Program-made: the position numbers and the translations under genes
Shown: positions 4,097 to 37,811 of the stretch, piece after piece
Numbering within the stretch: position 1 is the stretch's first letter
Layout of the letters: every line of letters begins with the position of its first letter
Assembly (NCBI GenBank): GCA_002863125.1
Contig: PKEB01000002.1
Location: 1-52,466, forward strand
Source: Flavobacteriales bacterium
Lineage (GTDB): Bacteria; Bacteroidota; Bacteroidia; Flavobacteriales_D; Sanyastnellaceae
DNA: 52,466 bases
Reading direction: 5' to 3'
The notes under the pieces: model-generated
The model's input: only the letters and a program-made list of their open reading frames with translations
Databases searched by the model: none
What the model was told of the DNA's origin: nothing

Positions 4097-4230
4097 ATTT
4101 TTGGTCCGTCTGAGCGCAAGTGAACGCACGCGTGAGGGTAATTTCTGCATTTCGAGGACTCCGATGTTGCGCAATCTTGGGGGAAATTGTAGTTTGCAGA
4201 TTCATAACGACTAACTGTAACACCAAATCC

Positions 4231-7200
4231 ATGCGCAATTTATTCTTGGCCCTCCTCGGGGGAATGCTCTCTGTGCCCGCATTGGCCGACGTCGTCGGCA
4301 TTGAAGCTGAAGTGCATGCAACTTCAGAGAACGGAACGACCTACCGTGTTTATGTCAATTTCGATGCAGTCGACGACGAATTGATCGCCATCTATGGAAC
4401 TGTTGGCGAGGCGCAAAATGCACCATTGAGTGTTTTGACAACGACGACGTTCTACCAGGAGCCGACGGCTTCGGTCAATTATGCGCAGGATTTAAATCCC
4501 GCCTTTTTCGGCTTTTTCCCCAATCTCGCTTACGACAGCTGGTTCACCATCGGATCAGAAGACAACTCGGGTACAGGCGGATTGAGTGCTGTGGGCATGG
4601 AGCCATACCTCGACGGATTCAATACGGCTAATGGATTCACGGTGGATACCTTCACGGGGGCCTCTTGGTTTGTTATTCCCGGTGTGTCGGCCGATGCCAT
4701 TGCGGGGGACGATAACCGCGTGTTGGTCGCGCAATTGACAACTGACGGCATCATCACGGTTGTGCTGAATGCACAGTATGACGATGCCTCGGGCAACACA
4801 TCGACAGCCATTGGGCTGACTGCGACGTTTCCCGAGTTGGCGGCGGGATGCACCGATGCAACGGCTTGCAACTACGACGGCGACGCAGAAGCGGATGACG
4901 GAAGTTGTTTCTTCCCTGGTGATGCGTGTGATGATGGGGACAGTTTGACCATCAACGATGTATACAATGCCGACTGTGCGTGCACCGGCGAAGCGGTAGT
5001 TGAGGGCTGCACCGATGCCAGTGCGTGCAACTACGCGACTGCAGCGAACACCGACGATGGCTCGTGCTTTTTTGTAGGTGATGCCTGCGATGACGGCGAC
5101 GCCAGTACCGGTGGTGACGTGATCGGTGATGACTGCCAATGTGCGGGTTTTGACATCGTCTTCGGCTGCACCGATTCATCGGCGTGCAACTACGACTCAG
5201 CTGCCGAGCAATCGGATGGTTCGTGTGTGTATCCAGGCGATGCCTGCGATGACGGCTTCAGCAACACCATTGACGATGTGTACCAAAGTGACTGCTCGTG
5301 CAGCGGCACCTTGGTTCCAACCGGTCCAGCCGGGATCGAGGTAGAGGAATACGCCACATCCGAATACGGAACAACGTACCGAGTGTACGCGACGTTCGAC
5401 GCGCCAACCAATGAACTCATTGCCGTTTACGGAACCGTGAGTGAAGCACAAAACGCACCGTTGAGTGTACTTTCAACGACCGGTTTCTATAACACGGGAT
5501 TGGGTTCAAATTTTGGAGAATTCATCAACCCAGCGTTCTTCTCGGCCTTCCCTGAGGTGGAGTATGACAGCTGGTTCACCATCGGCACGGAGAATACCAA
5601 TGGGGACGGTGGAGTCGCTTCAGTTGGGTTGGAACCCTACTTGGAAGAGTTTAACTCTGGCAACGGATTCACGGTCGATACGTTCTTGGGCGCGTCTTGG
5701 TTTGTGGTTCCGGGTTCAAACACCGACGCCATTGCGGGGGATGACAATAAGGTCCTTGTCGCGCAATTGACTACGGATGGTGTGGCTACGTTGGTCATGA
5801 ATTTCCAGTACGATGACCTCGAAGGCAACAGCTACAATACCGATGGTTTGACCGTGACGTTCCCTGAAGTACCCTCCGGGTGCACGGATGCGACGGCATG
5901 CAACTACGATGCGGAGGCCGAAGTCAACGACGGCTCGTGCGCATACCCTGGGGATGCCTGTGACGATGGAGATGCGATGACCATCAACGATGCCTACACA
6001 GATACTTGTGGATGTGCTGGAGATGCAGTGGTTGAAGGGTGTACAGATGCTGCAGCGTGTAACTACGATGAGGCGGCTAACGTGGACGATGGTTCATGCG
6101 CCCAGTTGGATGAATGCGGCGTATGCGGTGGCAATGGTATTCCCGATGGCGCCTGCGGATGCGATGGCAATGGACCGGATGAATACTATGATTGCGATGG
6201 CAATTGCTTGAACGATACAGATGACGATGGCATTTGCGATGAATTGGAGATAGCCGGTTGTCAGGACGGTGCTGCGTGCAATTACGATGCGGACGCAACT
6301 GATAACGATAACTCGTGCACTTACCCCGATGAGCTCTACAATTGCGACGGCACATGTGTCAATGACGTCAATCAGAACGGCCTATGCGACGAACTGGAAG
6401 TGTTTGGCTGCACATCGGAAACAGCGGACAATTATGATCCCGACGCCTTGACTGACAACGGCACATGCGTCTGGTTGGATGGATTGGTCGAATCACTCTC
6501 ATACGAGGTGTATGCGGAAGATGGCATTTCGGGCATGACGACGTACCGGTTGTACGCCAATTTCGCTTCGGACGATGTGGAGGTAACGGCAGTTTACGGT
6601 ACAGAAGAATCTCCATGGCAACTGGTACCTTCCACGTCTTTCTACCAGGATGAGGTCGGTACGGCGTTCGCGAGTGGAATCAACCCGGCGTTCTTTGCGG
6701 TGGTGCCATCGCTCGAATATGATTCTTGGTTGGCCATTGGTGCCGCACCGGGTGAGGATGATCAATCCAACTCGGTAGGGATGGATGCATTTACCCCGGC
6801 CTTTGAGGCGGGTGGGGCATTGGACGTGAATACCTTCCTTGGGGGGTCACTTTTCCTCATTCCTGGCGCATCAACACAAGCTGTTCCGGTGGACGGAAAA
6901 GTCCTGTTGGCGCAGGTGACAACGGATGGACTGACCGATGCCTTGGTCAACATTCAATTGCGTGATGCCAATGATGAAACGTTCGAGGTTGCGGGGCTGT
7001 CATTGACCTTCCCACAGGTGGAGGTTACCGGCGCGGGTTGCACTGACCCAGCAGCCAATAACTACGACCCGGGGGCGTTGCTGGATGATGGTACATGTGA
7101 ATACCCCGAGCCGAGCTACACGGGGCTCACCTACGAATTGCTTGCAGAGGACCTGCCTGAGGCGGGCATGCGGACGTTCCGTGTATATGCGAATTTCAGC

Positions 7201-8499
7201 AATCCGAATGACCAGCTTACGGCGGTTTTTGCGCAAGACGGCAACCCGATGAGCATTGCTTCGTCTACCAGCTTTTACCAAAACGCAATCGGCGGAGCCT
7301 TTGCCAGTGAGATCAATCCGTTTGCCGACATGGTCGATCCGGATGTGGTGTACGACAGCTGGTTTACCATTGGGGGAGAAAACAGTGATTTGAACCTGTC
7401 CACGGTAGGAACTGATGTGGCCGCTGCTGCATTTGAAACGGGGGACGCATTTGAGGTCAACAACTCCTTGGGTGCAAGCTGGTTTGTGTTGCCTGACACG
7501 GAACCATTGGCATTCCCTGATGACAACGGTCAAGTTTTGATTGCCCAGTTGACCACGACCGGACAAGTCAACCTCCTGGTGAATTTGCAATACCGAGCAC
7601 AGAACGGTGAGAATCCGCAGGTGTTGAATGAGTCCTTGGTCTTCCCTGATATCGCTCTCGGATGCACCGATGAAATGGCGTGCAACTACGATGCCGAAGC
7701 GGAGGCAGATGATGGAACATGCAACTACCCAGCTGATTATTACGATTGCGATGGTGCCTGCTTGAACGACACCGATAGCGACGGAGTATGCGATGAATTG
7801 GAAGTTCCCGGTTGTACAGACTCCGATGCGGACAATTACAACGCTGATGCGACGGACGACGACGGTTCCTGCGAGTTCGAAGGGTGTACGTTCCCTACGG
7901 CCTGTAACTACGACCCCACGGCGAATACGGATGATGGGTCGTGTACATTCCCTGAGACGTTCTACGATTGCGACGGTAACTGCCTGCAAGACGACGATGG
8001 CGATGGAATCTGCAACCAATTGGAAGTGCCAGGTTGCACGGACACCGAAGCCCAGAACTATGACGCGACAGCAACGGATGATGACGGTTCGTGCGAATAC
8101 CCCGGTTGTACCAACCCGGATGCAGAGAACTACGATCCCGATGCGAACGTCGACGATGGATCCTGCATCGCGGGAGGCTGTATCTACTCGAATGCTACCA
8201 ACTACGATTCAGCGGCTTCTTATGATGACGGTTCTTGCGTTTTCGAGGGCTGTACCGATGAGGCAGCTAGCAACTACGCCCCACTGGCCTTGGACGATGA
8301 TGGTTCGTGCGTTTACGATGTATTGGGATGTACCTACGCAGAAGCATCCAACTACAATGCTGAGGCGACAGTCGACGACGGCAGTTGTGAATTGGTAGCT
8401 GAAGACGATTGCCCGTTCGACGTGGATGGAAACGGTTTGGTTGGTTCAGGTGACTTGCTGGAATTCCTGGCGGCCTATAGCTACCCCTGCCCGGAATAG
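4231..8499 (+). CDS. Large secreted modular protein: four novel domains, 16 Cys repeats, dockerin-like tail
   Basis: The frame is open from 4120, but MRNLFLALLGG at 4231 gives a clean signal peptide ending ALA, leaving a 1422-residue precursor. Four copies of an unassigned domain of about 180 residues lie near residues 22-204, 368-548, 753-935 and 962-1142. Each has YRVYxNF, FYQ, NPxF, a YDSWxxIG-like motif and a VL(V/I)AQ(L/V)TT strand. Between and after them are 16 short cysteine repeats (GCTDxxACNYDxxAxxDDGSC), some extended by DxDGDGxCDELE calcium-binding-like segments. The last 30 residues, CPFDVDGNGLVGSGDLLEFL onward, resemble half a dockerin. No standard T9SS tail is seen. The role is unknown; a calcium-stabilised surface or matrix protein is an inference. 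Confidence 0.85.
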   Translation: MRNLFLALLGGMLSVPALADVVGIEAEVHATSENGTTYRVYVNFDAVDDELIAIYGTVGEAQNAPLSVLTTTTFYQEPTASVNYAQDLNPAFFGFFPNLAYDSWFTIGSEDNSGTGGLSAVGMEPYLDGFNTANGFTVDTFTGASWFVIPGVSADAIAGDDNRVLVAQLTTDGIITVVLNAQYDDASGNTSTAIGLTATFPELAAGCTDATACNYDGDAEADDGSCFFPGDACDDGDSLTINDVYNADCACTGEAVVEGCTDASACNYATAANTDDGSCFFVGDACDDGDASTGGDVIGDDCQCAGFDIVFGCTDSSACNYDSAAEQSDGSCVYPGDACDDGFSNTIDDVYQSDCSCSGTLVPTGPAGIEVEEYATSEYGTTYRVYATFDAPTNELIAVYGTVSEAQNAPLSVLSTTGFYNTGLGSNFGEFINPAFFSAFPEVEYDSWFTIGTENTNGDGGVASVGLEPYLEEFNSGNGFTVDTFLGASWFVVPGSNTDAIAGDDNKVLVAQLTTDGVATLVMNFQYDDLEGNSYNTDGLTVTFPEVPSGCTDATACNYDAEAEVNDGSCAYPGDACDDGDAMTINDAYTDTCGCAGDAVVEGCTDAAACNYDEAANVDDGSCAQLDECGVCGGNGIPDGACGCDGNGPDEYYDCDGNCLNDTDDDGICDELEIAGCQDGAACNYDADATDNDNSCTYPDELYNCDGTCVNDVNQNGLCDELEVFGCTSETADNYDPDALTDNGTCVWLDGLVESLSYEVYAEDGISGMTTYRLYANFASDDVEVTAVYGTEESPWQLVPSTSFYQDEVGTAFASGINPAFFAVVPSLEYDSWLAIGAAPGEDDQSNSVGMDAFTPAFEAGGALDVNTFLGGSLFLIPGASTQAVPVDGKVLLAQVTTDGLTDALVNIQLRDANDETFEVAGLSLTFPQVEVTGAGCTDPAANNYDPGALLDDGTCEYPEPSYTGLTYELLAEDLPEAGMRTFRVYANFSNPNDQLTAVFAQDGNPMSIASSTSFYQNAIGGAFASEINPFADMVDPDVVYDSWFTIGGENSDLNLSTVGTDVAAAAFETGDAFEVNNSLGASWFVLPDTEPLAFPDDNGQVLIAQLTTTGQVNLLVNLQYRAQNGENPQVLNESLVFPDIALGCTDEMACNYDAEAEADDGTCNYPADYYDCDGACLNDTDSDGVCDELEVPGCTDSDADNYNADATDDDGSCEFEGCTFPTACNYDPTANTDDGSCTFPETFYDCDGNCLQDDDGDGICNQLEVPGCTDTEAQNYDATATDDDGSCEYPGCTNPDAENYDPDANVDDGSCIAGGCIYSNATNYDSAASYDDGSCVFEGCTDEAASNYAPLALDDDGSCVYDVLGCTYAEASNYNAEATVDDGSCELVAEDDCPFDVDGNGLVGSGDLLEFLAAYSYPCPE
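4846..5331 (+). repeat. Cysteine repeat block 1 in the 1422-residue secreted protein
   Basis: Three tandem units of about 53 residues, each starting GCTDxxACNY and continuing DDGSC-like, GDACDDGD and a C-x-C pair. The DNA copies have diverged, so the repetition is clearest at protein level. Confidence 0.8.
5878..6468 (+). repeat. Cysteine repeat block 2
   Basis: Four units headed GCTD, GCTD, GCQD and GCTS. Two are extended by YDCDGNC / DDDGICDELE-type segments rich in aspartate, suggesting calcium binding. Confidence 0.75.
7660..8395 (+). repeat. Cysteine repeat block 3
   Basis: Eight units beginning at GCTDEMACNYD and ending at DDGSCELV. The last five are compact, about 24 residues each, with only the two cysteines and the NY and DDGSC motifs kept. 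Confidence 0.78.
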
Positions 8500-19578: not shown

Positions 19579-21696
19579 ATGATCAACCGATTCACTCCCC
19601 TTTTCTTGCTCGCCACATTTGTCCTTTCCCATGCTTCCATCGAGGCGAAGGAGGGCATGTGGATACCGACTTTGCTGCAAGCAGTGGAAGGGGACATGCA
19701 GGCGATGGGCCTGCACTTGACCGCAGATGACATTTACAGCATCAACGAAGGCAGTTTGAAGGATGCCATTGTGCATTTCAATGGAGGCTGCACGGCGGAG
19801 ATGATCAGCGGGGAGGGCTTGCTGCTGACCAATCACCACTGCGGTTATGGCGAGATTGCCTACCACAGTACGGTTGAAAATGATTACCTAACAGATGGCT
19901 TTTGGGCGATGACGCGCGCGGAGGAGTTGGCCAACCCGGACTTGGTCGCCACCTTTATTGACCGGATCGAGGACGTCACGGAGCTTGTGCGCAATGCGGA
20001 AGATCCCCAAGCGGCAAAAGCGGACTTGGTGGCCCAAGCCACGGACGGCACCGGCCTCGACGCCGAGGTGGTGGCGTTTGATTTTGGCAACAGCTTTTAC
20101 TTAATCACCACGAAGACCTACCGCGATGTGCGGCTCGTAGGCGCGCCTCCTTCGGCGGTGGGAAAATTCGGCGGGGACACCGACAACTGGGTATGGCCGC
20201 GCCACACGGGGGATTTCAGCATGTTTCGCATCTATGCGGACGCGAACAATGAGCCGGCGGATTACAGCGAATCCAACGTTCCCTTTCAGCCGAAACACCA
20301 CTTTCCCGTCGACCTCGGTGGGGTCAAGGAGGGGGATTTCACTATGGTTTTTGGATTCCCCGGCCGCACGGAGCAATACCTGACCAGCGATGCAGTGACG
20401 TACGTGGTTGAGCACTTGAACCCAGCGCGCATCGAGATGCGTGACGCATCATTGGCTGTGGTCAATGCAGCGCGCTCCAGTTCACCGGCCTTGCGCATTG
20501 CATACGCGGACAAGCAGAGTTCCATCGCCAACGCTTGGAAGAAGTGGATTGGGCAAAACACCGGCTTGAATGAATTGGACGCCGTGGGCAAAAAGCTCGA
20601 ACTCGAAGCGGAGTTCATGGCCCGGGCCGCCGCAGCGGATAATTTGCCGTGGATGCAGTTGATCAGTAACATGCAATCGGCCAATGCAGAACGCAATCCC
20701 TACATGTTGGCCCGAAGCCTGTTCATTGAGTGGGTGTATTATGGTCCTGATGCTTTGAACTATGCGTGGTCATTTGCCCCGCTGGTAGAACGCTGGGAAG
20801 CCACGGAGGCCGCTGGTGAAACCGATGCCGTGATTGCGCAGTTGCAGGCCCGCACCAAAGACCATTTTCGGCAGTATGACGCGACCGTTGATCGGGACAT
20901 CATGGCGGCCCTTGTGGCCCCGTATTTTGACCACATCGATGGGGCATTCGTTCCGGAAGCCCTGCAGGCGGCGGAATCCGACCCCGACAACTGGGCAGCG
21001 CGCACCTATGCGAAGTCCGTATTCGACGACCGCGATGCGGTTGAGGCGTTATTGGCCAAAGGCAGCGCCAAAGCGTTTGCCAAACTTTCGAAGGACCCCT
21101 TGTATGCCCTCATCAAATCTATGCGCAACGCGTATTTCGATCGTGTCGCAGCTGGATATGGTGCCGCTTCAGCGGAACTTGATTCGCTGACCGGGATGTA
21201 CACCAACGGCTTGCGCACTTTGTTCCCGGAGCGCGCTTTTTTTCCGGATGCGAACAGCACCTTGCGTCTGACCTACGGAAAAGTGGAAGGGTCATCGCCT
21301 TACGATGGTATGACCTACCTGCCGTTTACAACGGCGAAAGGCATTTTGCAGAAATACATCCCTGGCGATGCCGACTTCGACTTGCCGGCGGATTTGGTTG
21401 CGGCACTTGAGGAAGGAGATTGGGGGGCGTATGCCAATGAAGAAGGCGAGCTTCCCGTATGCTTCACGGGTTCCAACCATACCACCGGAGGAAACTCGGG
21501 TTCACCAGCCATCGATGGGGACGGTCACCTTGTGGGCATCAATTTCGACCGGTCCTGGGAATCGACCATGAGCGATATTCTATTCGACGGCTCACGCTGC
21601 CGCAACATCATGGTCGACATTCGGTATGTCCTCTGGATCACCGATGTGTATGCAGGTGCCGGCCACCTCGTCGAAGAGATGGACGTGGTTCGCTGA
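19579..21696 (+). CDS. S46 family dipeptidyl-peptidase, DPP11-like
   Basis: A 705-residue periplasmic or surface serine peptidase that removes dipeptides from peptide N-termini, feeding amino-acid catabolism. A signal peptide ends near residue 23 (SIEAKEGMWIP is the usual mature start region). NHHCGY at residues 85-90 carries the catalytic histidine, DNWVWPRHTGDFS a conserved block with the catalytic aspartate, and GGNSGSP the catalytic Ser640. The residue 18 positions after the serine is Arg658 (in GINFDRSW). In Porphyromonas this position is Arg in DPP11 (Asp/Glu-specific) and Gly in DPP7 (hydrophobic), so acidic P1 specificity is inferred. Confidence 0.94.
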   Translation: MINRFTPLFLLATFVLSHASIEAKEGMWIPTLLQAVEGDMQAMGLHLTADDIYSINEGSLKDAIVHFNGGCTAEMISGEGLLLTNHHCGYGEIAYHSTVENDYLTDGFWAMTRAEELANPDLVATFIDRIEDVTELVRNAEDPQAAKADLVAQATDGTGLDAEVVAFDFGNSFYLITTKTYRDVRLVGAPPSAVGKFGGDTDNWVWPRHTGDFSMFRIYADANNEPADYSESNVPFQPKHHFPVDLGGVKEGDFTMVFGFPGRTEQYLTSDAVTYVVEHLNPARIEMRDASLAVVNAARSSSPALRIAYADKQSSIANAWKKWIGQNTGLNELDAVGKKLELEAEFMARAAAADNLPWMQLISNMQSANAERNPYMLARSLFIEWVYYGPDALNYAWSFAPLVERWEATEAAGETDAVIAQLQARTKDHFRQYDATVDRDIMAALVAPYFDHIDGAFVPEALQAAESDPDNWAARTYAKSVFDDRDAVEALLAKGSAKAFAKLSKDPLYALIKSMRNAYFDRVAAGYGAASAELDSLTGMYTNGLRTLFPERAFFPDANSTLRLTYGKVEGSSPYDGMTYLPFTTAKGILQKYIPGDADFDLPADLVAALEEGDWGAYANEEGELPVCFTGSNHTTGGNSGSPAIDGDGHLVGINFDRSWESTMSDILFDGSRCRNIMVDIRYVLWITDVYAGAGHLVEEMDVVR

Positions 21697-21967: not shown

Positions 21968-24889
21968 ATGCTGGCATTTTCGACCCGTTTTTACGCGCTT
22001 TCGTGCGCGCTGATTTCTTGCCTGTGCCTGGCCATAGCTCCGGCTTGGAGCCAATGCGCTGACGACGAAACCACCATCGAGGTGGTCATCGAACCGGACG
22101 GCTACCCGAACGAAATTTCTTGGGAACTTTCTTACCAAGGCAACGTCATCGCCTCGGGGGGCGCTGAAGGAGACGTCATTTGTTTTGATGCCACCATCGA
22201 ACAGCCCTGCTTGCAATTCAGCATGTTCGATTCGTATGGCGACGGCATCTTCGCGCCCGGCGGCTATACCCTCTACCAAGACGGCACGGAAATCGCATCC
22301 GGAGGTGATTACGGGTACGGAGAGACGGTGAACTTTGATTGCGCGCCCGGGTCGACATGCAACGATGCGTTCGAGCTTGACGAATCGGATTACGGTACCA
22401 TTGAGCAAACCCAAGGCAATGCGTGGTATGTTTTCACGCCGCCTGCCAACGGTATGTACGAATTCAATACGTGCGGATCTGGCTGCGACACCAAGCTCTG
22501 GATTTACGATTACTGCAACATGGGCAGCTTCGACAACACCAACGAGGGCTCGATTTATTATGACGATGAAGAAGGCGGGTGCGGTGATGAAGCTAATCTG
22601 ACGGTGCTGTTGGAAGGCGGTGCGCCCGTTTGGATCCGAATGGGGTTGGGTTCGCCTGATTACGCATCACTTGTTGATCTTCAATCTGAGTGGGCGTACC
22701 ATGACCAAGGCGAGGACTTGGGTTCTGAATGGACCGCAGCGGATTACGATGATACCGATTGGGATTCCGGAAATGCGGAACTGGGATACGGTGATGGAGA
22801 TGAAGCAACAACGGTATCATACGGCGATAACGCATCGGACAAACACATTACGACCTACTTCCGTCACGCCTTTGAATACACCGGAGAATCGGGTTCAGGA
22901 ATGGAGGGCTTGTTGCGCTTGCGCCGCGATGACGGCGCTGTGGTCTACCTAAACGGGGTGGAAATCATGCGAAGCAACATGCCTGACGGATTCGTGAATT
23001 CCGAAACCACAGCATTGAGCGAAATCGTCGGCGGGAACGAATCACAGTTGTACGAATACCCAGTCGTGCTCAACATGAACAACGGGTTGAACGTGCTAGC
23101 GGTTGAAGTTCACCAGATCAATTCGACCAGTTCGGACATCAGTTTCGATGCCGAGTTGTTGCTGGCCGATCCCGATGGCACGTGTGCCGAGGGTTTTGAT
23201 TGGGTGTTCAATTTTGCTGGTCCTGCAACCGGGTGCACGGATGAAGAAGCTTGCAACTACAACCCACTCGCCGAGGTGGATAGCGGCGATTGTATTTATG
23301 CCGGAGATCCAGATTGCACGGGTCCAGATTTGATTGTTAGCGCAGAAGCCATCGTCAACAGCCTGTCAACCCAAGTGATGCAGGTGAGCGAGACGGACTG
23401 CTACATCGACGAGGGCTGCTTGAATGGCTACGGCGACCGGGAGTTGGTTCGCTTCACGACCCACATCCTCAACATCGGCACACTTGATTACTACATCGGT
23501 GTGCCCAGCCAGGCGGACAATAACCAGTTTGAATGGGGCGATTGCCACAGCCACTGGCACCACAAGGGCTACGCCAAGTATGACCTCTTCACGCTCGAAG
23601 GTCAGTACATTCCGATTGGGTTCAAAAACGGATTCTGTGTCATGGATCTCGAGTGCAGCGGCGGCGGTACCGGCCAGTATGGCTGCGGAAACATGGGCAT
23701 TTCAGCGGGCTGCGGTGATATTTACGGTTCTGGCTTGAGCTGCCAATGGATTGATGTGACCGATGTTGAGGACGGCACCTATTACTTGATCGTTCGGGCG
23801 AACTACGATTTCATCCCGGATGCCCTCGGTCGAGCCGAGAACTCGTATGACAACAACCACGCAGCCGTCTGCATCAACCTCGATCGTTCGACCGGTGAAT
23901 TGGAAGTGGATGTCATCGGTGACTGTGAGCCGTTCAGTGATTGCGAAGGCACGGAGTTCGGTACGGCCGAGACCGATTGCAACGGCGATTGCAACGGGAC
24001 GGCCTTGATGGGCGACCTCGATAACAACGGCGCACAAGAGTACGCCGACGCCGTGGCGTACGTAGAGCACATCCTTGGCGACGACATCGAAGCGCTGCCC
24101 TGTACGGACGTCGATCAAGACGACGAAATCACGGTGACAGACGCAGCCCACTTGGCGCTATGTCAACTTTTCAATGAGCTCCACCAGCATCCCGATAGCT
24201 CGGGAATCCATGACAAGTGCGAGTTCCCTGTGAACCACATAGTCAATCCTTTCGATACGGTGCATTTCACCATAGGCGCCGTCAACTGGGGCCAGCAGTA
24301 CATGGACATTTACGTGCACAACCCGAACAATCGAATCGTCGGATACCAGTTCTCCATGAGCGGCATGGCGATTTCTTCTGCGGTGAGCCTCGCGGACCCC
24401 ACCGAGTATTCCATAACGCCTTCCTTCACGCCTGGTGGAGTGGAGGTCATCGGCCTGTCATACGAGGACATGAGTTTCCCAAAGCACTATGAGTTTGTGC
24501 CGCTGGTGCGTCTTTACTGGGCTTCCATTGAAGACGAGGTGTGCATTGATTTCGTCACCGACGTCGTCAACGAGGCCTACCACAATACGCTGAATGTCAT
24601 TGAGGAAGGGTGCGTAACCGCGAGTGGTGTTGCTGAAACCGTGGACGCTGAAGCGCCCATGCTTTACCCCAATCCGATGACGGACTACGCCACGTTGCGT
24701 TTTGCCAATCCCACCGGGCAACCCATGCAGTTGACCATCACCGATCCAACCGGTCGTGTGGTTCACACCGCAAACCCCACAGGCACCACTTATACCATTG
24801 ACCGCGGCGCGCTGCGAAGTGGAACCTACCTTTACACCCTATCTGGACCTGCAACGCCAGTATTTACCGGTCAATTGAACATTCAATGA
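21968..24889 (+). CDS. Secreted lysyl oxidase with T9SS sorting domain
   Basis: A 973-residue secreted protein. Signal peptide to about residue 28, a DSYGDG domain (about 30-118), a PPC-like region, and a galactose-binding-like beta-sandwich (YFRHAFEY, LRRDDGAVVYLNGVEI). The lysyl oxidase domain (about 455-640) keeps the copper site CHSHWHH (His527, 529, 531), Lys553 in GFKNGFC and Tyr586 in DIYG. The last two align with human LOX Lys320 and Tyr355, which form lysine tyrosylquinone. CQWIDVTDVEDGTYYL is also strikingly LOX-like. A dockerin-like calcium segment (GDLDNNGAQEYADA, DVDQDDEITVTDAAHL) and a type A T9SS tail (LYPNPMTDYATL) follow. It should oxidise primary amines, perhaps lysines of surface proteins. 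It overlaps the CotH gene by 4 bp. Confidence 0.9.
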   Translation: MLAFSTRFYALSCALISCLCLAIAPAWSQCADDETTIEVVIEPDGYPNEISWELSYQGNVIASGGAEGDVICFDATIEQPCLQFSMFDSYGDGIFAPGGYTLYQDGTEIASGGDYGYGETVNFDCAPGSTCNDAFELDESDYGTIEQTQGNAWYVFTPPANGMYEFNTCGSGCDTKLWIYDYCNMGSFDNTNEGSIYYDDEEGGCGDEANLTVLLEGGAPVWIRMGLGSPDYASLVDLQSEWAYHDQGEDLGSEWTAADYDDTDWDSGNAELGYGDGDEATTVSYGDNASDKHITTYFRHAFEYTGESGSGMEGLLRLRRDDGAVVYLNGVEIMRSNMPDGFVNSETTALSEIVGGNESQLYEYPVVLNMNNGLNVLAVEVHQINSTSSDISFDAELLLADPDGTCAEGFDWVFNFAGPATGCTDEEACNYNPLAEVDSGDCIYAGDPDCTGPDLIVSAEAIVNSLSTQVMQVSETDCYIDEGCLNGYGDRELVRFTTHILNIGTLDYYIGVPSQADNNQFEWGDCHSHWHHKGYAKYDLFTLEGQYIPIGFKNGFCVMDLECSGGGTGQYGCGNMGISAGCGDIYGSGLSCQWIDVTDVEDGTYYLIVRANYDFIPDALGRAENSYDNNHAAVCINLDRSTGELEVDVIGDCEPFSDCEGTEFGTAETDCNGDCNGTALMGDLDNNGAQEYADAVAYVEHILGDDIEALPCTDVDQDDEITVTDAAHLALCQLFNELHQHPDSSGIHDKCEFPVNHIVNPFDTVHFTIGAVNWGQQYMDIYVHNPNNRIVGYQFSMSGMAISSAVSLADPTEYSITPSFTPGGVEVIGLSYEDMSFPKHYEFVPLVRLYWASIEDEVCIDFVTDVVNEAYHNTLNVIEEGCVTASGVAETVDAEAPMLYPNPMTDYATLRFANPTGQPMQLTITDPTGRVVHTANPTGTTYTIDRGALRSGTYLYTLSGPATPVFTGQLNIQ

Positions 24890-27800
24890 TGCGTAAGCAC
24901 CTCTTGAACATCCCTTTCCTTGCCACCCTTGCGTGCTTGGCTGTCTCAGCAGCCTCAGCGCAAGTCATCATCAATGAGTTTTCGGCCAGCAACTACACGC
25001 TGGGCGTCAACGGTGATAACGAAGATTACATCGAATTTTATAACGAAGGCCCTGCGGAGGTTGACCTCGACGGCCACTGGTTATCCGACAATCCGGACAA
25101 CCCGCAGATGTTTGAAATACCGGCGGGCACAACCGTGCCGGCGGGTGGCTACCTGCTGATAATTTGCTCCAACGAGGGGGAAGTCCCCGAGAATCTCTAT
25201 GTCGGAGGCAGCTTGAACACGAATTTCAAGGTGACGCAGACGATGGGGGAATCGGTCGTGTTCTCAGATCCTGCGGGTAACATCCTGGAATCGTACACCT
25301 TTTACGAAGACTGGACGCCGACACAGGCGGACCACAGCTGGTCCCGTGATGCGGATGGTTCAGCCGGTCAGTGGCGTGTCTGCACGAATCCCACGCCGGG
25401 CAATCCCAACGGCGGAAACCTCTACATCGAGTACGCACCTACCCCGCAGTTCCAAGAAGAATCCGGTTACTATGCGGGCGGTACCAATGTGGCCATTACA
25501 GCTCCTGTTGGCTACGACATCCGATACACGACGGACGGATACGCACCGACCCCGGGCAGCCCCTTGTACACGGGACCCATCGCGGTCAATGAAACGACGG
25601 TCATCCGTGCGCGGTGTTTTGACCCGACTGGCGCCTACGCGGATTCGCACATCAACACCAACACCTATTTCACTGGCAATGACAACCACAGCATCATCGT
25701 GGTTTCGGTGTCAGGCGACGAACAGGAGGACGGCCAATGGCCCGGTGGCTGGGGTGGGGGAGCGGACGAGCCGTGCCACGTTGAGTTTTTCCATCCCGAC
25801 GGTACTTACTGGTGCGAGGGTTCAGGCGACTCCAACGAGCACGGCAATGACTCGAATGCCTACCCACAAAAGGGATTTGACTACATCACACGCGATCAAA
25901 TGGGCCACAGCTACGGCTTGCTGGAGCCGCTCTTCCACGTGAAGGAGCGCGACGTATACCAGCGTTTGATCTTCAAAGCTGCGGCGAACGACAATTACCC
26001 AAGCTCCGGTGGTGGACACATCCGGGATGCCTACGTGCAGACGCTCAGCCATTTGGCGGATCTGCACGTCGACGAACGAACCAACGAAAGCTGCATCGTC
26101 TACCTCAATGGCGAATACTGGGGCGTTTACGAGTACCGTGAAAAGGTGGATGACCTTGATTTTACCACGGAGTACTACGATCAACCGCGTCACTTTGTGG
26201 ACTTCATCAAAACGTGGGGCGGTACGTGGGTAGAGTACGGAGACGATGCCGATTGGATGCCGCTTGTGAACTTTGTGACCGGTCAAGACATGACCGATCC
26301 GGATAACTACGATTACGTCACAAGCGTCTACAACGTGATGAGCCTCATCGACTATTACCTGCTGAATTCTTTCACGGTATGCGCTGATTGGTTGAATTGG
26401 AATACCGCTTGGTGGCGTGGTCGCCATCCCGATGGCAGCGGTAAGAAGTGGCGCTACGCGTTGTGGGACATGGACAACACGTTTGGCCATGGTGCAAACT
26501 ACACCGGTGTACCGTCCCAAGGTGCGGACGCCGATCCCTGCAATCCCGAGTCACTCGGTAACGTGGGCGGGCAAGGTCACATCCCGATTTTCAATTCCTT
26601 AATGGAAAATGAAGATTTCTGGGCCACCTACATCAACCGCTGGGCGGACTTGAGCAACACGCACTTCAGCTGTGACAACATGCACGCTGTGCTGGATAGC
26701 ATGATCAACGTCATCGAGCCCGAGATGGATCGTCACATCGATCGTTGGGGCGGGAGCTACGACGGCTGGATGGCCAACGTGGACGAAATCCACGACTTCA
26801 TCGAGGAGCGGTGCGCGGAAATGCTCATCAACGGCCTCGAGGATTGCTATGAAGTGGAATCTGTAACGCTGACCCTCATCATCGACGGAATGGGCGAGGT
26901 GCAGGTGAATTCGGTGGATATTGGCCCCTTCGACGTGCCGATGGATGCGACTTACTTTGCTGGTGTTCCGATGGAGCTCACAGCTGAAGAGTCGATGGGC
27001 GAGGTCTTCTTGTTTTGGCAGGTACTGGACGGGGACATCACCCTGAACGACCCCACCAATCCGTACCTCGGTTTCACTTTGAACGGCGATGCGACCTTGG
27101 TTGCTTACTTCGCTGCGAATGCCGATCCCCAGGAGACGACGTTCGTGGTGGATCCTCCCGGTGCGGGAGAAATTTATGTGGACGGTACGGCCTTGTTGAA
27201 TTACCCGGCAACCGAATTGCTCGACTACGGCGCACACGACGTCCAAGCCGTCGGTCTGGATCAATGGCACGTCTTCACGGGCTGGTCCTCAACCGGTCCC
27301 CAAGTGGCGCCGTCCATGGCCAATGCCGCTGGAAGCATCTCCGTCACCGAACCCGCTACGTACACGGCTCACTTCAATGTGATTGAACACAGCGACCTGA
27401 AGGTCCGGGTGGAGCCACCGAACAAAGGTGTTGTCCGCATCGAAGGCGGTGCGGTCATTGTCACGGACGAATGGGAAGGTGGCCTTGAAATCGCGGGCTT
27501 GCTGAACGCGGATGCAGCACCGGTGGAACATTGGGCTTTCGACCGATGGGAAATTGCCAATGCCGCACCGAATCCCAGCGCAACATCCGCGAACATCACC
27601 TTTCCCAAGCAAGACGAAGAAGAACTCGTGGCTTACTTCGTGCCGATTGATTTCGCCGTATATGTCCCAACGGCATTCAGCCCGAACAACGATGGATTGA
27701 ACGACGCGTTCATGCCAGTTGGCACCTCGTTTGTCGCTGAAACGTACCACTTGATTGTCATCAACCGATGGGGAGAAAAGGTGTTTGAATCGTTCGACCC

Positions 27801-27939
27801 GAAGGAGCCTTGGATTGGCCAGCACCAAGGCGGCGATCACTTCGTCCGCGATGGCCAGTACATGTACCGATTGGAAGTTCAGTCGGTGCACGAGATGGTG
27901 CCGCGGAGCTATACAGGCAGCGTAACGGTCGTTCGCTAA
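24886..27939 (+). CDS. Secreted CotH-type kinase with type B T9SS sorting domain
   Basis: A 1017-residue exported protein whose start overlaps the lysyl oxidase stop. Order of parts: signal peptide to about residue 25 (SAASAQ), lamin-tail domain (VIINEFSASN, DYIEFYN; about 26-150), a chitobiase C-terminal-like strand domain (YTTDGYAPTPGSPLYTGPI), then the CotH kinase domain (about 265-660) with RDAYVQTLSH, YLNGEYWGVYEYREK and ALWDMDNTFGHG (Asp528/Asp530, likely metal-binding acids). Two InlB-like beta repeats (about 675-895) and a gliding-motility C-terminal domain (PTAFSPNNDGLND, NRWGEKVFES) follow. CotH proteins of Bacillus phosphorylate spore-coat proteins; the substrate here is unknown. 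Confidence 0.9.
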   Translation: MMRKHLLNIPFLATLACLAVSAASAQVIINEFSASNYTLGVNGDNEDYIEFYNEGPAEVDLDGHWLSDNPDNPQMFEIPAGTTVPAGGYLLIICSNEGEVPENLYVGGSLNTNFKVTQTMGESVVFSDPAGNILESYTFYEDWTPTQADHSWSRDADGSAGQWRVCTNPTPGNPNGGNLYIEYAPTPQFQEESGYYAGGTNVAITAPVGYDIRYTTDGYAPTPGSPLYTGPIAVNETTVIRARCFDPTGAYADSHINTNTYFTGNDNHSIIVVSVSGDEQEDGQWPGGWGGGADEPCHVEFFHPDGTYWCEGSGDSNEHGNDSNAYPQKGFDYITRDQMGHSYGLLEPLFHVKERDVYQRLIFKAAANDNYPSSGGGHIRDAYVQTLSHLADLHVDERTNESCIVYLNGEYWGVYEYREKVDDLDFTTEYYDQPRHFVDFIKTWGGTWVEYGDDADWMPLVNFVTGQDMTDPDNYDYVTSVYNVMSLIDYYLLNSFTVCADWLNWNTAWWRGRHPDGSGKKWRYALWDMDNTFGHGANYTGVPSQGADADPCNPESLGNVGGQGHIPIFNSLMENEDFWATYINRWADLSNTHFSCDNMHAVLDSMINVIEPEMDRHIDRWGGSYDGWMANVDEIHDFIEERCAEMLINGLEDCYEVESVTLTLIIDGMGEVQVNSVDIGPFDVPMDATYFAGVPMELTAEESMGEVFLFWQVLDGDITLNDPTNPYLGFTLNGDATLVAYFAANADPQETTFVVDPPGAGEIYVDGTALLNYPATELLDYGAHDVQAVGLDQWHVFTGWSSTGPQVAPSMANAAGSISVTEPATYTAHFNVIEHSDLKVRVEPPNKGVVRIEGGAVIVTDEWEGGLEIAGLLNADAAPVEHWAFDRWEIANAAPNPSATSANITFPKQDEEELVAYFVPIDFAVYVPTAFSPNNDGLNDAFMPVGTSFVAETYHLIVINRWGEKVFESFDPKEPWIGQHQGGDHFVRDGQYMYRLEVQSVHEMVPRSYTGSVTVVR

Positions 27940-34583: not shown

Positions 34584-34682
34584 TGCCCATGTAGCGGAAT
34601 TCCGCTATTTTGCGCTTTCAATTGAACAAGCAACGTTTTGCCAATGCGGCTTGTTTTGCTTGCAGACCCTGAAATACCATTC

Positions 34683-37600
34683 ATGAAAGAACTCGTGAAT
34701 TCTCACCCCTCAATTTTCCGCGGCTGGGCTGCCTCTTGCCTCCGCGTGTTCTCCATTGCGTTTACTGTAGCTTTGGTCACCGGCAGCGCCTCCGCCCAAA
34801 TGACTGGTGTCACGTGGGAGGTGGACACTGCGTTTTACGAACCCACCACCTTCGATGCCGCTGGCGAGCCGCTGTACGCGGACTTGGAAGGATATGTGAC
34901 GTACAAGCTCTTTGCGGAGTTTACCAACGCAACGGATGAGCTCAGTGCGATCTACTCCGATGCCGTCGTACTCGGGACCGAACCGTTTTACATCAACGCG
35001 CCTTGTGGCTGCTTCAATCCGGACTTGGGTGATGTGTTACTTGGAGGCACACAAAACCTGGCGTTGCTTGATCTTTTTCCCGAGGTGGCTTACGATACAT
35101 ACTGGACCCTCGGCTTTGCGGCAGGAGAGCAATACACTGGCAGTAATACGGCTTATGAATCGACCACAATGTGTGCGGAAGAAGAAGACGGTGGACTCAT
35201 CTTTACTGTTGTTCCCGAAGCGGCAGGAGACGACTTGCGCATCCAATTTGCGCAGGTGACGACGTGCGGATTGTTTGAATTCCATGCGTGCTTCCAGGTT
35301 TTTGTCGAAGGCGTGCAGGCACCCTACCAGGAATGGTGCATGGATGGGGACGGCAATGGCCCCGAACTGGTGGAAAACCCCTGCGAGACCTATGCGGAAA
35401 CCAATGCCGCCATCGATATCACCAGTAGCATCGACTGCTTTGGTGACCTTGCGAGTGTCGATGTCAATGCCTACGGTGTTTCACCCATCACCTATGAATT
35501 GTTCGATGCATCGGACTCGACCTTGGTCACGACGCAGGTCGATGACAACGAATTTTTCGGCCTCTCAGAGGGAGATTATTTCGTGGCCATCGTCGATGGC
35601 AACACGTGCCGTGACTCATCTGACGTTTTTGGGTTTGTCGAGCCGCCTGAATTGAGCGCGGCCTGGTCATTGCTGGAAGACAACATATGCCCAGGTGACT
35701 TGTCGAGCGTGGTTGAAATCGATTTTTCTGGAGGGGTACCGAACTACAACATCGTGGCGTTTTCCGCAACCAACACGGGAACGGGGCTTTTGCCCGACCC
35801 GAACTACCAATGGGTAGGGTTGGATTGCGTAGATGGAAACGGTGAGTGGGATTTTGAAATTTCGGATGCCAACGGTTGTTCGTTGGACACCTCAATAATC
35901 ATTTCATGCATTGACCCGATCGTACTGCAAGCCACGGCTGAGGACATCACTTGTTTCTCATACGGTGACGGCCTCATTACAGGGTCGATGAGTGGTGGAA
36001 CGGGTACGTTGACGTTGACCGGAGATCCAGACTTGGGTGCCAATATCTCGGGTGAAGGTTCTGTGGACTTTGCAGTTACAGAGCTTGAAGCTGCAGCGTA
36101 CTTCTTGCTGGTAACGGATGCCAACGGATGCCAGGATTCGACAGAGGTAACCATCATCGAACCGGATGCCGTAACGATGCAGATCATCGCAAACGACCTA
36201 CTCTGTGCAGAATCCTGTGACGGTGAGGTGAACATTGCGGCGTTCGGGGGTTCGGGTGTTTTCAACTATTCAGTGACCGATGCAGATGGCAATGAGTACG
36301 ATGATGAAGGCCTGTGTGTAGGTTCATACTTGGCCAATGCCGAGGATGAAAACGGCTGCTTCGTGGATTCAGCCTTCCAGGTGATGGCGCCGGATAGCAT
36401 TTTATTCGATATCGTTATTGAGGACGTGACGTGCAACGGAGAGACCAACGGATCGATTTGTGTGGAAAACGTAACCGGTGGTACCGGCGCTCTGAGTTTC
36501 CAAGTGGACCCTCCCGGGGCGGCCTTCCAATTCGACCCGTGTTTTGACGTGGCCTCAGGCACTTACGTGGTGACCGCGATGGATGAGGTCGGATGCGAAG
36601 TGAGTTCGGATCCGCAGTTGGTCATTGAGCCGGATGCCATTCAGTTGATTCTGTCTGCAACCGAAATTACCTGTACGTCCTATGCGGACGGCATGCTGAC
36701 GGTGGAGGGCATCGGCGGGACAGGTGCTTTGACTTTGGTGGAACCCGAAGACGGAGTGCTGCCCTACACATTGGAGGATTTGCCGCCAGGTCCCATAGGT
36801 CTTACGGTTCAGGATGAGAACGGATGCATCAGTACAGAAGCAGCTGAAATCATTGAGCCGGATTCGCTTCAAGTTGAATGGCTACTGTTGGAAGACGTGG
36901 GATGCGGCGGCGATTGCGATGGGACGGCCATCGTGGATTTCAGCGGTGGTACAGGCAGCGTGATGATGACGCTCAACGGCAGTGAAGAATTTAACTTTGC
37001 AGCACTTTGTGCGGGTGCATACACCGCCACGGTGGTGGATGGCAACGGATGCATGGATTCGACCTTTTTCGAAATCATGGAGCCGGACCCCATCGAGGTG
37101 CTGATCGATGTGACCGATGTGACCTGTACCGGGATGAATGATGGAGAGGTGAACATTTTCCCAATCGGTGGAACTGGCGACATCACGTGGGAGGTCCTCG
37201 AAGAAGGCCTCGACTTGTTGAATCTAAATGAAGGCGTGTACACCATTACGGCGATTGACTCCATAGGCTGCGTCGAGGACACGGCGTTCACCGTTGCGGC
37301 TGAGATCGACACGGACATGCTCATCAGCATGCTCAGCTCACCGGTCACCTGCTGGAATGAGCAAGACGGCACTGCGACGGCGTCGGTTGTTGGCGGATTC
37401 CAGCCGATTGAGTACCTGTGGAGCGACGAAGATGCCCAGACTACGGCCACGGCGACAGGCCTGTACGAAGACACCTACTCGGTCGTCGTCACTGATAGCC
37501 TGGGATGCACCCTGACCCGGGTAGTGACGGTGGAACCGACCATTGGCTGTTTCTTCATCGCCGAAGCCATTACGCCGAATGGCGATGGATACAACGACGA

Positions 37601-37811
37601 ATGGATCGTCGGTGGATTGGAGTATTTCCCCGCCGCAGACGTACGGGTGTTCAACCGCTGGGGCCAGCAGGTATTCTATTCGCAGGGGTATCAAATACGT
37701 TGGGACGGTCGCTACAATAACGCGCCATTGCCTATGGCCGACTACTATTACGTCATTGAATTTGCCGGTGACAAGGATCCGATTACAGGAACCGTAACCT
37801 TGAAATACTAA
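34683..37811 (+). CDS. SprB-repeat surface protein with type B T9SS sorting domain
   Basis: A 1042-residue exported protein. ATG 34683 gives a long signal peptide ending SASAQ near residue 40; the ATG at 34638 is an alternative. Residues about 42-225 are a divergent copy of the unassigned domain found in the 4231, 38811 and 50125 genes (FYINAPC, VAYDTYWTLG, IQFAQVTTCG). Eight or nine SprB repeats follow (for example ITCFSYGDGLITGSMSGGTG and VTCNGETNGSICVENVTGGT), as in the gliding adhesin SprB. The end is a gliding-motility-associated C-terminal domain (AEAITPNGDGYNDEW, VRVFNRWGQQVFYS). It is followed by a PorP/SprF gene, the usual partner of type B cargo. Confidence 0.9.
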   Translation: MKELVNSHPSIFRGWAASCLRVFSIAFTVALVTGSASAQMTGVTWEVDTAFYEPTTFDAAGEPLYADLEGYVTYKLFAEFTNATDELSAIYSDAVVLGTEPFYINAPCGCFNPDLGDVLLGGTQNLALLDLFPEVAYDTYWTLGFAAGEQYTGSNTAYESTTMCAEEEDGGLIFTVVPEAAGDDLRIQFAQVTTCGLFEFHACFQVFVEGVQAPYQEWCMDGDGNGPELVENPCETYAETNAAIDITSSIDCFGDLASVDVNAYGVSPITYELFDASDSTLVTTQVDDNEFFGLSEGDYFVAIVDGNTCRDSSDVFGFVEPPELSAAWSLLEDNICPGDLSSVVEIDFSGGVPNYNIVAFSATNTGTGLLPDPNYQWVGLDCVDGNGEWDFEISDANGCSLDTSIIISCIDPIVLQATAEDITCFSYGDGLITGSMSGGTGTLTLTGDPDLGANISGEGSVDFAVTELEAAAYFLLVTDANGCQDSTEVTIIEPDAVTMQIIANDLLCAESCDGEVNIAAFGGSGVFNYSVTDADGNEYDDEGLCVGSYLANAEDENGCFVDSAFQVMAPDSILFDIVIEDVTCNGETNGSICVENVTGGTGALSFQVDPPGAAFQFDPCFDVASGTYVVTAMDEVGCEVSSDPQLVIEPDAIQLILSATEITCTSYADGMLTVEGIGGTGALTLVEPEDGVLPYTLEDLPPGPIGLTVQDENGCISTEAAEIIEPDSLQVEWLLLEDVGCGGDCDGTAIVDFSGGTGSVMMTLNGSEEFNFAALCAGAYTATVVDGNGCMDSTFFEIMEPDPIEVLIDVTDVTCTGMNDGEVNIFPIGGTGDITWEVLEEGLDLLNLNEGVYTITAIDSIGCVEDTAFTVAAEIDTDMLISMLSSPVTCWNEQDGTATASVVGGFQPIEYLWSDEDAQTTATATGLYEDTYSVVVTDSLGCTLTRVVTVEPTIGCFFIAEAITPNGDGYNDEWIVGGLEYFPAADVRVFNRWGQQVFYSQGYQIRWDGRYNNAPLPMADYYYVIEFAGDKDPITGTVTLKY

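Follow-up and report, generated by a model that had tools for sequence, protein, structure and literature searches.

The window analysed here, a stretch of 52,466 nucleotides from an assembly labelled Flavobacteriales bacterium (contig PKEB01000002.1), encodes at 21968-24889 (+) a genuine relative of lysyl oxidase (LOX), the collagen-cross-linking enzyme of animals. The gene is nearly core in one family of uncultured Flavobacteriales and rare in the phylum, and its product is likely an active surface amine oxidase with copper and a lysine tyrosylquinone (LTQ) cofactor, exported via Sec and the type IX secretion system (T9SS). In the LOX family, Cu(II) and O2 turn a tyrosine into a quinone that binds a lysine, which gives LTQ, and the mature enzyme converts R-CH2-NH2 to an aldehyde, NH3 and H2O2. 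The frame runs for 973 amino acids without a stop, as an earlier note on this DNA had correctly placed it. At its longest the open reading frame (ORF) starts at 21626; the blastp alignments of near relatives start at the ATG at 21968, which opens a signal peptide with AWS directly before Gln29 (by eye), and the Q-rule for signal peptides of Bacteroidetes is described in PMC5837995.

Family membership and fold

The Pfam search proposed in the earlier note gave a significant match to the LOX family PF01186 (E 1.3e-32, 113.5 bits, cut-off 20.4), the single one in the 2.27 Mb genome of the window, and PF01186 was matched in none of 14 control genomes. Among the sequences of the PDB, human LOXL2 (5ze3) was the sole convincing relative (phmmer E 8.6e-24, the next rows having 0.71 and 0.76), and a profile of 81 sequences matched it with E 5.7e-29. 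A structure of residues 442-658 was predicted by AlphaFold2 with the window protein and 80 relatives as input (predicted local distance difference test score, pLDDT, 85.9; predicted template modelling score, pTM, 0.83). Foldseek placed 5ze3 at the top for this model (E 1.1e-15), and nothing but its two chains fell below 0.001. The VIA-align comparison with LOXL2 gave Z 22.3, a root-mean-square deviation of 2.7 Å and 33% identity over 201 aligned residues, against Z 7.9 for the next fold; the predicted domain superposes on human LOXL2, the comparison that the earlier note had proposed. A large distance between the lysine and the tyrosine in such a model is not a valid refutation, because Lys653 and Tyr689 are 16.6 Å apart in the crystal of the LOXL2 precursor (PMC9694262).

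Catalytic residues, cysteines and the fixed lysine

In the window protein, Cys526 and His527, His529 and His531 lie in DCHSHWHH, Lys553 in GFKNGFC and Tyr586 in DIYG, with CQWIDVTD at 592; these positions agree with the numbering and the spacings of 22 and 33 residues given earlier. The phmmer alignment with LOXL2 sets Cys526-His527-x-His529-x-His531 against DCHRHYH, Lys553 against GHKASFC and Tyr586 against CWDMY, where the copper and LTQ residues of LOXL2 are His626/628/630, Lys653 and Tyr689 (PMC9694262). The copper and quinone-cofactor residues that the earlier note took to be intact are therefore all found in the LOXL2 columns. None of the 110 loci lacks any of the three histidines, Lys553, Tyr586 or the 11 cysteines of this region. 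These loci comprise 30 from profile (hidden Markov model, HMM) searches and 80 from a six-probe search, and some share organisms. The ORFs were chosen by a Cys..HxHxH motif, which favours the histidines, and nonetheless each locus yielded one; one of the six probes included Lys553 and may favour it among the 80 loci, the 30 HMM-found loci being unaffected.

Among the full-length proteins, 71 in all (that of the window and those of 70 probe-found loci out of 80), Lys553 is the sole lysine that never varies, followed by Lys839 (69/71) and Lys537 (57/71). The proteins themselves contain between 3 and 14 lysines, with a median of 7 (n=71), and the mature protein of the window has 7 in 946 amino acids. 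The single fixed lysine of a lysine-poor protein is, by alignment, the predicted cofactor residue.

The flanking cysteines that the earlier note had aligned do correspond to cysteines of the animal enzyme. Four of the disulfides of LOXL2 are 573-625, 579-695, 657-673 and 663-685 (PMC9180022), and their eight cysteines align with Cys478/484/526/557/563/573/582/592, each present in 110/110 loci. The counterpart of a fifth LOXL2 disulfide, 732-746, would be Cys635-Cys653, outside the aligned stretch. The same alignment places Gly524, Lys537 and Phe552 at LOXL2 His623, His637 and His652. These replaced accessory histidines, together with copies of the domain in big proteins of many domains, PKD and MopE repeats among them (5/5 long proteins scanned), could speak for a catalytically dead LOX fold retained as a binding or structural module; with five catalytic residues in 110/110 loci and no second lysine fixed, we regard this as very unlikely.

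Export signals and architecture

The T9SS tail claimed earlier was borne out: the C-terminus matched Por_Secre_tail PF18962 at residues 899-959 (35.9 bits, cut-off 27) and TIGR04183 of NCBIfam (31.3 bits, cut-off 23), and the same genome encodes SprA in a frame of 2505 amino acids (SprA_N, E 1.5e-159). Two other modules named in the earlier note were not confirmed. Pfam lists neither a dockerin nor a galactose-binding-like family in the protein at E<=1; in the dockerin-like region two DxDxxx-type loops are visible by eye, in a segment of low pLDDT. PF23759 was found by Pfam elsewhere in two relatives (L114 and L118), not in the insert at residues 227-396 of the window protein.

A common core of approximately residues 28-226 and 397-973 was delineated by blastp across the loci. 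The insert between its two parts is present in many near relatives and missing from others: a gap from about 225 to 397 was seen in loci with ORFs of about 800 amino acids, and ORFs of about 975-1,023 aligned across the segment. A member of the same genus (locus L017, genome G010), 80% identical over the C-terminal part, has no insert, and the insert is therefore readily gained or lost. The Pfam scan listed no family for the N-terminal region, and some of the loci in which this region did not align are ended by contig ends. For the full-length model (pTM 0.34) the 50 matches listed were to LOXL2 and to GH2-type enzymes bearing beta-sandwiches, the latter unspecific, and the N-terminal, inserted and C-terminal modules were not assigned to a named fold.

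Other genera of the family have LOX inside long proteins, of which five with 1,261-2,237 amino acids were scanned; PKD and MopE-type (PF11617) repeats were present in all five and a type A tail in four. Such loci are L014, L015, L020 and L114-L119, in genomes G027, G028, G031, G046, G054, G077 and G086, and one of the proteins has 17 stretches of PF11617 repeats. Although PF11617 is named after copper binding, we provisionally take these repeats to be calcium-loop-like. The parts of the window protein and the genes on either side are collected in Table 1.

Table 1. Features of the LOX gene and of the adjoining genes, in window coordinates.
Feature	Position	Strand	Basis
Signal peptide, residues 1-28; mature N-terminus probably Gln29	21968..22051	+	translation, by eye
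N-terminal Cys-containing beta region, residues 29-226, core architecture	22052..22645	+	aligned in most of 110 loci; strands in model
Inserted module, residues ~227-396, missing from many relatives	22646..23155	+	blastp gap
Cys-rich linker GCTDEEACNYNP...CIYAGDPDC, residues 397-445	23156..23302	+	translation; invariant Cys columns
Lysyl oxidase catalytic domain PF01186, residues 454-639	23327..23884	+	Pfam, PDB sequence and fold matches
Copper-site motif His527-x-His529-x-His531 (predicted)	23546..23560	+	aligns with LOXL2 DCHRHYH; 110/110 loci
Lys553, predicted LTQ lysine	23624..23626	+	aligns with LOXL2 GHKASFC; 110/110 loci
Tyr586, predicted LTQ tyrosine	23723..23725	+	aligns with LOXL2 CWDMY; 110/110 loci
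Two DxDxxx-type calcium-loop segments, residues 682-733	24011..24166	+	translation, by eye
C-terminal beta-strand region, residues ~759-884	24242..24619	+	model strands, mostly good pLDDT
Type A T9SS C-terminal sorting domain, residues 899-973	24662..24886	+	PF18962 and TIGR04183 above cut-off
LTD and CotH kinase-like protein with CHU_C (type B T9SS) tail	24886..27939	+	Pfam; start overlaps LOX stop by 4 nt
S46 peptidase family gene, upstream of LOX	19579..21696	+	PF10459, E 6.3e-213

Distribution

LOX was found in 20 of the 22 genomes of its own genus, that of the window included, and in 80 of the 92 genomes of the rest of the family, that is, in 100/114 across the family, some of the LOX-negative genomes being incomplete. 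In the rest of the order it occurred in 19/86 genomes, seven of these matches being weak (E 2.8e-8 to 7.6e-6; all counts within the order were made by hand), and phylum-wide in 4 of 395, two of which belong to this family, the window's own among them. The gene is thus nearly core in the family and rare in the phylum. The 80 probe-found loci are mostly labelled uncultured Flavobacteriales or Bacteroidetes, some Crocinitomicaceae or Saprospiraceae, and one of them (L031) has a LOX domain identical to that of the window. Judging by the sample codes, we assume that the source is probably marine. A mobile origin was considered and rejected: phages gave no match, and plasmids a single distant one (Gemmatirosa, 28.9% identity).

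Two loci on PBNL01 contigs labelled Euryarchaeota archaeon isolate SP189 (L057 and L083) encode LOX with 77% and 68% identity, and in L057 S46 and CotH genes adjoin it. Their source is probably a mislabelled Bacteroidota metagenome-assembled genome, which could mislead anyone who looks for LOX in archaea. In other families of the Bacteroidota, two distant LOX-like proteins (L112 and L113; E 5e-8 and 9e-8) retain HxHxH, the lysine of KVSYC and the tyrosine of GYDxYG, as read by eye.

Gene neighbourhood

The gene that overlaps the LOX stop encodes a protein with LTD, CotH PF08757 (E 5.1e-32), repeat domains and a CHU_C tail above the Pfam cut-off; the NCBIfam model of the type B tail, TIGR04131, gave 30 bits, below its cut-off of 35. 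Of the 80 probe-found loci, 75 were testable, having at least 600 nt downstream, and in 42 of them a CotH gene follows LOX directly in the same orientation; its tblastn match starts between -3 and 205 nt relative to the LOX stop, with identities as low as 50%. On a quick LOX tree of 88 rows, made by a lighter method and with some long branches meeting, this adjacency required two changes when rows of unknown context were left out and five when they were counted as lacking it. CotH as an obligate partner of LOX was rejected, as 33 of the 75 loci have no CotH next door, and CotH homologues occur in 185/200 genomes at E<=1e-30, LOX-negative ones included. That the two genes form a secreted maturation pair, oxidising and phosphorylating an extracellular matrix or coat protein, is in our estimate improbable. 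If true, the pair would do in bacteria what LOX and Fam20C-type kinases do on the animal matrix, and would have been kept across an uncultured family.

On the other side, 42/67 testable loci have an S46 peptidase gene in the same orientation no more than 1.2 kb upstream. This would suit a nutritional surface amine oxidase that deaminates polyamines, taurine-like amines or lysyl peptides taken from the water for nitrogen and carbon beside the peptidase, and so would the relaxed specificity of an archaeal LOX that has taurine as one of its best substrates (PMC6452851) and the lysine-poor T9SS cargo described below. The S46 linkage is, however, weak functional evidence, since synteny in many of these loci extends to other neighbours in the window, and we consider amine or nitrogen scavenging possible but rather doubtful.

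A second group of LOX paralogues occurs partly in the same assemblies (L039/L080 and L058/L077, for example, share contig prefixes) and in other contexts. Seven loci of this group (L071, L080, L084, L088, L098, L100 and L101), among 23 loci whose neighbours were clustered, have a gene from a single protein cluster immediately before LOX; the only member scanned, that of L088, belongs to the glucose/sorbosone dehydrogenase family PF07995, whose proteins are often quinone-dependent. Elsewhere in the window, 4120-8499 holds an ORF of 1459 amino acids with 0.2% Lys and 18% Asp+Glu, for which Pfam gave no family above the curated cut-off, and 34638-37811 a protein with SprB repeats that ends in CHU_C, a T9SS tail of type B.

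Lysine content of the T9SS cargo

In the genome of the window (G000), T9SS cargo averages 0.91% Lys over 21 proteins, and 57 cytosol-like proteins average 4.45%. Cargo was lysine-poor relative to cytosol-like proteins in six of seven genomes, those where cargo turned up; in the seventh, G194, none was found in the stretches taken. Type A cargo has about 0.7-1.9% Lys in G000, G025, G032, G039, G061, G115 and G190, whether LOX is present or not, cytosol-like proteins have about 4.5-8% where counted, and the cargo of G196 (two proteins) has 3.2%.

The idea that LOX goes with a depletion of lysine in the surface proteins was rejected, since there was no consistent difference between genomes with and without the gene. 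Counted on the best 30 of 63, 136, at least 150, 87 and at least 150 matches in five genomes, cargo Lys was 0.97, 0.70 and 1.20% in the LOX-positive G000, G032 and G025 versus 1.35 and 1.07% in the LOX-negative G061 and G039. The bootstrap intervals of the two groups overlap throughout. The one same-genus pair (G032, 0.70, and G061, 1.35) follows the prediction, with intervals that barely overlap, and the cargo of G039 is about as low in lysine as that of G000. Low cargo lysine is therefore not tied to LOX. With cargo at 0.91% Lys, it is not obvious that the enzyme would cross-link the bacterium's type A cargo in bulk; likelier targets are a small number of partners that do carry lysine, a structural protein of another kind, or amines and proteins from outside.

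Proposed function

We propose the following mechanism, in which cofactor formation, copper loading, activity and location are predictions. The protein would pass Sec and then cross the outer membrane by T9SS, to remain on the cell surface or be released. Copper at His527/529/531 would drive the formation of LTQ out of Lys553 and Tyr586, and the enzyme would then oxidise primary amines, either peptidyl-lysine or small amines, to aldehydes, with NH3 and H2O2 as the other products. As to the purpose, we tentatively suggest the modification of an extracellular protein, which would be cross-linked or tagged with aldehydes, perhaps with the CotH-like kinase acting beside LOX; we hold this to be possible rather than probable; a role of some other kind is conceivable, if on the doubtful side.

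One such role would be that of a weapon or signal, with H2O2 from the surface enzyme inhibiting neighbours. H2O2 is a product of the reaction, the archaeal enzyme was assayed through its release (PMC6452851), and the T9SS tail would bring the source to the outside. On the other hand, Pfam listed no catalase or immunity-type family on 17 window and neighbour genes, no targeted search having been made, and the role is not described in the passages of the LOX literature examined; it seems to us quite improbable.

Several observations weigh against an active, T9SS-exported surface oxidase. Mutation of His623 or His652 leaves less than 50% of the LTQ in LOXL2 (PMC9694262), and since these residues are Gly524 and Phe552 here, the cofactor yield could differ. 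Passages of PMC4448552 describe bacterial LOX as generally without the first histidine of the motif, yet predicted to be active. T9SS export, as predicted from the tail, may fail for some relatives: PF01186 was matched in 10 of 10 scanned, and the tail was above its cut-off in four of them, below it in two (26.0 and 22.2 against 27 bits) and unmatched at E<=0.01 in four. LOX is also dispensable, as five family genomes of 96-99% completeness lack it (G035, G038, G039, G061 and G064). Finally, at about 1% Lys the type A surface proteins of the bacterium itself offer few targets.

Comparison with known systems

The LOX family in Bacteroidetes and an active archaeal LOX are already known. Grau-Bove et al. 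2015 (PMC4448552) reported LOX in five bacterial clades, Bacteroidetes included. The T9SS tail, the new LOX architectures, the lineage-wide distribution and the CotH-like neighbour are new. The earlier note knew of no LOX described in its proposed architecture; in the open-access literature, judged by titles, we likewise found neither a T9SS-linked LOX, nor a flavobacterial one of such kind, nor one from marine metagenome-assembled genomes. The native role of the enzyme of Haloterrigena turkmenica (HTU-LOX) is called cryptic (PMC6452851). For finding what prokaryotes use lysyl oxidases for, a lineage in which the gene is near-core, with an export tail, a strict active site and a recurrent neighbour, is better than sporadic copies, and a near-core surface LOX makes a bacterial use of the enzyme testable. 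In addition, a LOX domain with most of the animal-type cysteine set is useful for studies of LTQ biogenesis, and the sample of multi-module LOX is material for asking about the origin of animal LOX.

Human LOXL2 (5ze3) shares with the window protein the fold, HxHxH, the positions of the LTQ lysine and tyrosine, and eight cysteines of the catalytic domain. It differs in the three accessory histidines and in its SRCR domains, which Pfam does not list in the window protein, whereas the latter has a T9SS tail and extra bacterial modules. HTU-LOX, a distant homologue, is likewise prokaryotic, with conserved His, Lys and Tyr, and is an active amine oxidase sensitive to 3-aminopropionitrile; the study of this enzyme stresses that the number of disulfides varies among LOXs (PMC6452851). 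Unlike the window LOX it is archaeal, and the two are set side by side by description. The partner protein alone resembles the CotH kinase of Bacillus subtilis (PMC7821199) in its PF08757 kinase-like domain, a likeness by domain match, and differs from it in the CHU_C tail, LTD and repeat domains. The bacterial LOX of PMC4448552 belong to the same family and include those of Bacteroidetes; as described in passages of that study, most prokaryotic LOX, with three exceptions, have one-domain, simple architectures, whereas LOX is here multi-module, with a T9SS tail in the window protein, and near-core in one family.

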